From a virus: a DNA stretch of 42,477 nt. Below are positions 36,160 through 37,614 of this stretch, in pieces (positions within the stretch are counted from its first letter, which is position 1; every line of letters begins with the position of its first letter). Under the pieces are notes generated by a model. The model was given only the letters and a program-made list of their open reading frames with translations. It did no database searches and had not been told where the DNA came from. The stretch covers positions 1 through 42,477 of the IMG/VR virus record IMGVR_UViG_3300031885_000041; one strand, given 5' to 3'. Made by a program: the position numbers and the translations under genes.

Positions 36160-36774
36160 TCAATTCAATTTTGCGCTGGTGGAAGGCAACTTGTTGAGCA
36201 TCTGCAAAACATAATCCAATTTATGCCCGACCAGACCAACATCCTTGTTATTAATTTGCTCAAAACGCACACACCTCTCCACAATATCAGCCTCTATCCT
36301 CTTTCCTTCTTGAATTAGAAAGTCGTAAAAACTCTGCCACGATCCATCATGATTCTGATCTCTGAGCGCCGCTAGTTGTTCTGGATATATATCTTCTACA
36401 TCCACACCGTCAAACATACTGAGATCTAAGCAGTCAAAATTTAATTGTTGTTGAAAATCCTGCATAAATTCAGATATTTCCTGCAAACACGCATAAAGTC
36501 TTGCAAGATGCTGGTCAATAGATCTCTGATTTGAGAGAATCGTCCCAACAAGTAATGTCATAGAATCTTTGTCAGGTAGATTAAATTTCGGAGACGAACA
36601 GCCGAAACCATATTTGTGTGATATATCCATCATCATAAATACAAGTTTCTGGCTGATATCATCTCTAGAAAAAACTACTTTGGTCTCAAGCCTAGCTGGT
36701 CGTGATTTTACAAGAAGTGCTTGGAATTCACCCAACTCTATAATTTTGACATCAATATTCTTTTTAGGTGCCAT
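36160..36774 (-). CDS. Hypothetical protein of the replication block
   Basis: 204 residues, mostly helical, not recognised. Segments such as GTILSNQRSIDQHLARLYAC and EGKRIEADIVERCVRFEQ suggest a helical bundle. No Cys clusters or nucleotide-binding motif. The start lies 20 bases after a strong hairpin (36794-36841) and has no clear Shine-Dalgarno, so its translation may depend on the upstream SSB gene or on that RNA structure. Confidence 0.6.
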   Translation of the reverse strand: MAPKKNIDVKIIELGEFQALLVKSRPARLETKVVFSRDDISQKLVFMMMDISHKYGFGCSSPKFNLPDKDSMTLLVGTILSNQRSIDQHLARLYACLQEISEFMQDFQQQLNFDCLDLSMFDGVDVEDIYPEQLAALRDQNHDGSWQSFYDFLIQEGKRIEADIVERCVRFEQINNKDVGLVGHKLDYVLQMLNKLPSTSAKLN

Positions 36775-36793
36775 AGGCGTCCATAAAGTTAAA

Positions 36794-36841
36794 CTGGCGG
36801 ATCCTGCTTAGACCACATTGTTTTTTTGCAGGATCCGCCAG
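36794..36841 (-). promoter_or_regulatory. 14-bp perfect hairpin directly after the SSB gene
   Basis: Arms CTGGCGGATCCTGC (36794-36807) and GCAGGATCCGCCAG (36828-36841) with a 20-base loop. On the transcript it begins nine bases after the SSB stop and is followed by only three U, so it is a poor intrinsic terminator. Thirteen loop bases (36809-36821) are the reverse complement of 37602-37614 in the SSB leader. Confidence 0.75.
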
Positions 36842-36849
36842 CTATTCGG

Positions 36850-37524
36850 CTACGACTGATCGTCTCCGAAATCAAAATCCTCGTCCTTCACGGCAGGCTT
36901 ATTGTCGCTACTCTTGGAAACGGTTTTAGTACCAACCGCATACGAGGGGGCGGGACTATCATCGATCGCACCCATCTTCTCAGCCACTTCCTCAGGAGTT
37001 GCGGGCTGACAGAACTTACCAATATTCACCCTTTCAAAGAAATTAGCCACAATGGCTTTTTCCTCATCATTGAGGTCTCTCTGCCTAGGACTGGGAAGAA
37101 CGGTATAAAGGGGATTGGTTCCCTTCGGGCCACGCTGAACAGTGACATCATATGCCATTACCTTGCCCCAATCGTGCTGATAAAATGCACTCCACTCTGG
37201 ATTGTTGACATACTTCTTGATGCCATTATAGATCTGTTGGGAGATCTCAAGAATCTTCGGAAGACCACTCTTCCTGTCCAATACACCAACAAACCAACGA
37301 TATTGACCCTTCACCATCCTCTTACACAGCGGACAATTCTTAAGAGCACAGCGGATCTTCCTATTGGCTCCAGAAGTGTCCTGTACCCAATGTACGACAA
37401 ACTGATAGGGTGTAGTCAACACTCTTACTTGATTATCACCCTCTTGCAGTCTCATAAAGTCGTTCGGTGTGGAAGTATCCCCATCGTCCCAGCTCTCAAG
37501 TTGTCCATATTTTACTTCGGCCAT
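36850..37524 (-). CDS. Single-stranded DNA-binding protein, T4 gp32-like
   Basis: 224 residues from the ATG at 37524, chosen for its AGGAGG site; an upstream ATG at 37581 lacks one. The core has a gp32-like zinc site (H45, C59, C64, C67, in CALKNCPLCKR), aromatic residues for base stacking (QYRWFVGVLDR, WSAFYQHDWGKVMAYDV) and a very acidic tail (DEDFDFGDDQS) typical of SSBs that recruit partner proteins. It coats ssDNA during replication and recombination. Its 106-base leader is long for this compact genome and, with the downstream hairpin, suggests RNA-level control, as known for gp32 in T4. Confidence 0.82.
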   Translation of the reverse strand: MAEVKYGQLESWDDGDTSTPNDFMRLQEGDNQVRVLTTPYQFVVHWVQDTSGANRKIRCALKNCPLCKRMVKGQYRWFVGVLDRKSGLPKILEISQQIYNGIKKYVNNPEWSAFYQHDWGKVMAYDVTVQRGPKGTNPLYTVLPSPRQRDLNDEEKAIVANFFERVNIGKFCQPATPEEVAEKMGAIDDSPAPSYAVGTKTVSKSSDNKPAVKDEDFDFGDDQS

Positions 37525-37601
37525 TTTGTCCTCCTTGTTATTTGTCCCATTTAGCACAATGTGCATTCTGGGAAATTTCATTTCTGCAATTAATGCCGTC
37601 T

Positions 37602-37614
37602 ACAATGTGGTCTA
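37602..37614 (-). promoter_or_regulatory. SSB leader element complementary to downstream hairpin loop
   Basis: ACAATGTGGTCTA on the plus strand, giving UAGACCACAUUGU in the leader about 78-90 bases before the SSB start. It pairs perfectly with the loop of the hairpin after the same gene. Confidence 0.55.

Follow-up and report, generated by a model that had tools for sequence, protein, structure and literature searches.

In Q-beta RNA, a long-range pseudoknot is formed between the loop of a 3' hairpin and a site ~1 kb upstream. Pairing between the two ends of an mRNA is a known kind of structure, of which there are few bacterial or phage cases. For the B. subtilis gene hbs (Braun et al. 2017), a review describes a complementarity of ~14 nt between leader and 3' UTR that shields the leader from RNase Y (PMC7821165). 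No mRNA of phage T4 is more stable than that of gene 32, which RNase E cleaves 71 nt upstream and which carries a pseudoknot ~67 nt upstream of the start codon, and the diversity of gp32-type operators beyond T4 has been little studied (PMC3014915). Here, the 42,477-base IMG/VR virus record IMGVR_UViG_3300031885_000041 was analyzed over its whole length (the window), with emphasis on the two ends of the mRNA of a single-stranded-DNA-binding protein (SSB).

The ssb locus and its complementary ends

The first-pass annotation of this DNA had described a hairpin with 14-bp arms behind the ssb gene, the loop of which is complementary over 13 nt to the 106-nt ssb leader, and its coordinates, letters and lengths were exact on recheck. 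The locus contains the following features:

36850..37524, (-) strand: ssb, 224 aa, gp32-fold SSB, assigned from SSB matches to PHROG 1192/1607 and a fold match to 1gpc
37524-37522, (-) strand: likely ATG start codon of ssb, chosen by the Shine-Dalgarno sequence and alignment
37529..37536, (-) strand: Shine-Dalgarno sequence AAGGAGGA of ssb, from the sequence
37545..37573, (-) strand: leader hairpin beside the ribosome-binding site, UCCC-GCAC-loop-GUGC-GGGA, from folding and covariation
37602..37614, (-) strand: leader element A, mRNA 5'-UAGACCACAUUGU-3', exact complement of A', covarying in 10 other phages
36792..36843, (-) strand: terminator-like hairpin just 3' of ssb in its extended form, with a perfect 14-bp core at 36794-36841, from RNA folding
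36809..36821, (-) strand: loop element A', mRNA 5'-ACAAUGUGGUCUA-3', exact complement of A, in the 3' half of the loop and 1 nt from the 3' arm
36160..36774, (-) strand: gene P, 204 aa, starting just past the hairpin in phages with the pairing

The leader measures 106 nt from the upstream stop to the start codon, and A sits 90 nt upstream of the latter. The arms of the 3' hairpin (36794-36807 and 36828-36841) are 100% complementary over 14 bp and enclose a 20-nt loop (36808-36827; AAAAAAACAAUGUGGUCUAA in the mRNA sense), and RNA folding of 36770-36860 gave a z of -4.6. Within this loop, 36809-36821 is 100% complementary to 37602-37614 over 13 nt. At the gathering score, Rfam returned no match in the window and six further loci, and the hairpin gave sub-threshold microRNA-type matches only. 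Separately, a 25-nt inverted repeat (36585-36609 and 36848-36872, 84% complementary) was observed in the window between the end of ssb and gene P; it scored 49 compared to 20 in shuffles and was absent from the other 10 phages with A and A'.

The AlphaFold model of the SSB had a mean pLDDT of 70. A Foldseek search of this model against the PDB matched the T4 gp32 core 1gpc (E 2.2e-5, probability 1.00, TM 0.52/0.54), the sole fold match at E<=0.001. As modeled, the window SSB has the gp32 core fold, which makes the comparison with gp32 drawn in the first-pass annotation an apt one. Cysteines resembling the zinc ligands of gp32 (C, CPLC) are kept by most members and are missing in the ssb genes of L024 and L028.

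The complementarity had been called very unlikely by chance. For the leader alone this held, as none of 1,000 shuffles of the 200-nt window leader equaled the observed helix with the window loop; for the window as a whole it was too strong, since a lax scan of all window hairpin loops against the surrounding +/-2 kb returned a few other matches of equal strength. A general tendency of loops to pair nearby was considered for the window and two larger records and rejected, as it did not exceed the chance level of the lax scan. Over the window and the 10 other phages described below, with 1,000 shuffled leaders each, no shuffle was as good at 9/11 loci, and three and one were as good for L006 and L015, respectively. 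Because the lax scan gives equal matches elsewhere, one sequence alone is insufficient and the case is carried by the comparative data.

Covariation of leader and loop

Scans of IMG/VR retrieved 10 further distinct phage contigs, the largest of 301 kb, that carry close relatives of ssb; the encoded proteins were ~55-66% identical to the window SSB. In each of the 10, ssb ended with a long hairpin, the loop of which was complementary in its 3' part to a stretch of the leader, with letters that differed between phages. In the close ssb group, 11/11 distinct phages had A and A', with a helix of 10-13 bp, as illustrated by the following leader/loop pairs:

L009 and L023: AGGCCACGUUGAA/UUCAACGUGGCCU
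L007: AGGUCGCGUUGAA/UUCAACGCGACCU
L022: UAGACCAUGUUGA/UCAACAUGGUCUA
L024: UGUGUUGGAAAU/AUUUCCAACACA

In L006, L008 and L015 the pairing was retained via G-U. Covariation in related phages had been named as the check for the first-pass claim that the ssb mRNA ends could pair, and two-sided (compensatory) changes were found at all 12 of the 12 base pairs of the registered A/A' alignment. Pairing was seen in 97.5% of the alignment cells compared to 74.9% when shuffled and 28-39% when slid, and the covariation score was 0.746 compared to 0.258+-0.046, values that are biased in favor of the pairing by the registration of rows by hand around it and that do not represent independent events, since the phages are related. 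A swap test, which is alignment-free though the positions of A were preset, gave a mean duplex energy of -20.3 kcal/mol for cognate leader-loop pairs and -11.6 kcal/mol for swapped pairs, and 0/100,000 permutations reached the observed total. Once the leader is opened, the net energy of the A/A' duplex was -11 to -21 kcal/mol. All five standard pairs that are not Watson-Crick pairs, read in the mRNA sense, were G-U and none was A-C, which, with these small numbers, speaks for pairing as RNA, in the sense of the mRNA, rather than for a repeat in the DNA.

The geometry was also constant. The hairpin begins a few bases past the ssb stop codon in the window and has the corresponding place in 11/11 phages, A' is separated from the 3' arm by 0-1 nt in all 11, and on its other side lie 3-8 nt, mostly A/U-rich. 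A begins 85-121 nt 5' of the start codon across the 11 phages and ends at least 73 nt 5' of it in each. An icaR-type anti-Shine-Dalgarno pairing was rejected because of this distance, and with A lying clear of the ribosome-binding site there is no obvious direct effect on translation. The layout of A and A' would correspond to an H-type pseudoknot with coaxial stacking and a span of ~800 nt.

The A/A' complementarity is beyond chance and, as judged by comparison across the 11 phages, selection keeps the two elements complementary, in the RNA sense and beside ssb. Assuming that both lie on one transcript, these phages would have 5'-3' UTR paired ssb mRNAs with 10-13 bp between leader and 3' UTR, and the pairing of the mRNA ends, put forward as a possibility in the first-pass annotation, is well supported by the covariation in 11 distinct phages.

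Gene neighborhood and distribution of the pairing

The gene order around ssb is largely shared (DNA polymerase III alpha, zinc-ribbon-like, two small genes, a further small gene in some cases, ssb, P, RuvC, DnaJ and RecA), interrupted by insertions in some phages. The model of P is confident (mean pLDDT 89), and the protein matched nothing in Pfam or PHROG, had no significant fold match in the PDB and no homologue in cultured phages. Mostly, A overlaps the stop codon of the preceding gene, and in L022 it lies inside that gene. The window is without the small upstream gene, yet retains A. In L015, an open reading frame judged by eye to be HNH-endonuclease-like (L015:2335-2895) separates ssb from the small upstream gene and has a copy of A on either side (2322-2332 and 2893-2903). 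Each copy can pair with the post-ssb loop, and the one next to ssb still does despite the insertion. In T4, the homing endonuclease gene segG likewise precedes gene 32 (PMC535899). No promoter was found beside A in a simple scan of the window, and TTGA...TATA-like strings 5' of A in some loci were discounted as they overlap coding sequence.

The stem of the 3' hairpin, as an intrinsic-terminator feature, was strong in all loci compared. The U-tract was good in L004, L006, L007 and L008, and weak in the window, L003, L009, L015 and L023.

The leader hairpin beside the ribosome-binding site also occurs outside the phages with the A/A' pairing. Both of its helices, outer and inner, covary across seven distinct sequence types, among them that of Bacillus phage G, where the hairpin lies in the gp377 leader. 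It maps to L052:2440-2500 as well as to 37545-37573 of the window, and its inner helix was seen in L010 and L011. It had no Rfam match. It is a possible translational operator for SSB.

In L010 and L011, leader-loop pairing was not above that of shuffles. The post-ssb hairpins of these two (L010:4604-4720 and L011:4625-4740) have a stem of 17-19 bp and a loop of 54-56 nt that itself folds. Outgroup ssb genes, including that of phage G, mostly had plain terminators with tight loops of 4-8 nt, and no pairing was seen in them. SSB relatives without the complementarity, which the first-pass annotation would have taken as refuting a role for it, do therefore exist among distant relatives with a different 3' end; none was found in the close group. 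On the SSB tree the 11 phages with A and A' cluster (2 changes compared to 9.4 when shuffled), and a single origin of A/A' is possible. In the two larger records (301 kb and 116 kb), A and A' are the sole full or near-full matches to the A core, and this confinement to the surroundings of ssb favors action in cis. No DNA similarity to the window was found among cultured phages, a search of genome contigs found no relative, and a scan with protein P as query returned the same phages and none new.

Proposed mechanism and alternatives

The reading that we prefer, with a probability of roughly 0.6, is that A and A' form a gene-spanning, pseudoknot-like clamp that acts in cis and stabilizes the ssb mRNA, with the hairpin beside the ribosome-binding site as the SSB operator. 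The ssb mRNA would fold back and bring A in the leader into a helix of 10-13 bp with A' in the loop of the hairpin that ends the ssb part of the transcript; this helix could stack on the hairpin stem, with 0-1 nt to the 3' arm and a linker of 3-8 nt opposite. Acting after transcription, the clamp would shield the ssb segment from ribonucleases at its leader and 3' end, by analogy with hbs, and give a long-lived ssb mRNA. The leader hairpin may serve as translational operator for SSB, a role that the gene 32 leader plays for gp32 in T4. What emerges from the comparison of sequences is the pairing, the mRNA sense in which it reads, its constant geometry and, for the two larger records, its restriction to ssb; a function of the clamp may lie in stability, in translation or in both. 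Stabilization is favored by the position of A clear of the ribosome-binding site, the hbs precedent and the exceptional stability of the T4 gene 32 mRNA. Against the clamp, ribosomes at the stop codon of the upstream gene would in most of the phages compete with the pairing, and with weak U-tracts in several phages the transcript may run on into P.

The main rival is a role in SSB autoregulation, in which the pseudoknot of A and the 3' hairpin would be a recognition site that nucleates SSB, from where it would spread over the ribosome-binding site, stability being secondary. The gp32 fold of the SSB fits such a site, as does the start of A at 85-121 nt upstream when set beside the ~67 nt of the T4 pseudoknot, and the constant junction of 0-1 nt points to coaxial stacking of the kind found in the T2 pseudoknot. 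However, the separate conserved leader hairpin is a simpler operator candidate, because it is present in phage G and, by its inner helix, in L010 and L011, all without A/A', and we consider a recognition site at the clamp unlikely. It is similarly doubtful that one gene-spanning pseudoknot is both mRNA stabilizer and nucleation site for SSB autoregulation, as a split, lineage-wide version of the T4 gene 32 operator.

The remaining explanations are less likely. Control of transcription, in which nascent A would pair with the emerging A', alter termination and set the read-through into P and the downstream replication genes, would be in line with the start of P just past the hairpin in the pairing phages and with the plain tight-loop terminators of several relatives in which RuvC follows ssb. 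It is improbable, however, as A' lies in the loop and the stem still forms when it is paired, a contact over ~800 nt would be needed within a short terminator pause, L010 and L011 have a P homologue and no pairing, and the U-tracts of several members are poor. An accessible, seed-like A' on a stable 3' hairpin is reminiscent of small RNAs derived from 3' UTRs, and the hairpin could be freed to pair in trans with ssb leaders or other phage mRNAs; this is very improbable given that the 301-kb record has no further exact 11-nt core and the 116-kb record no other site with fewer than three mismatches of 14. A DNA-level role of A and A' as inverted repeats (termini of a mobile ssb cassette, as the first-pass annotation had proposed as an alternative, a homing target, a protein site or template-switching repeats) would suit the HNH-type gene between two A copies in L015, but is very improbable when the copies covary pair by pair, the five wobbles, read on the mRNA strand, are without exception G-U rather than A-C, A' always occupies the 3' half of the loop at 0-1 nt from the arm, and the conserved gene order gives no sign of ssb having moved.

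Comparison with known systems

A covarying, lineage-wide pairing through the loop of a hairpin behind ssb was not found described in Rfam or in the papers searched, few of which were from subscription journals. Eleven divergent variants with compensatory changes at every pair are strong evolutionary evidence for mRNA-end pairing, and the pairing sits in the mRNA of a gp32-fold protein, a textbook case of autogenous control. The natural A/A' variants constitute ready-made compensatory mutants for the clamp. The Q-beta pseudoknot differs in that it serves the replication of an RNA-phage genome, whereas the structure described here would belong to the mRNA of a DNA phage.

The likeness to hbs, as far as the review of it goes, lies in 5'-3' complementarity within one mRNA and in a gene for an abundant DNA-binding protein (PMC7821165). 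In contrast to the ssb genes, hbs is a bacterial gene for an unrelated protein, and its 3' UTR is described in the review as not conserved in close relatives (PMC7821165), whereas the phage ssb pairing covaries in 11 phages. In S. aureus icaR, a 3' UTR motif likewise pairs within its own mRNA with the 5' UTR, but there 7 nt pair on the Shine-Dalgarno region, translation is blocked and RNase III recruited, while the phage A begins 85-121 nt upstream (PMC3868564).

Gene 32 of T4, T2 and RB69 shares with the locus the kind of protein, by fold, and a structured leader 5' of the ribosome-binding site (PMC535899, PMC3014915). The T4 operator consists of an H-type pseudoknot followed by a UUAAA-rich, unstructured ribosome-binding region. 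Stem-loop folding of the ssb leader predicts stem-loops, one of them beside the ribosome-binding site. The gene 32 pseudoknot lies entirely within the leader, whereas in the phage ssb mRNAs the partner strand would be provided by the hairpin behind the gene, in addition to the leader hairpin beside the ribosome-binding site.
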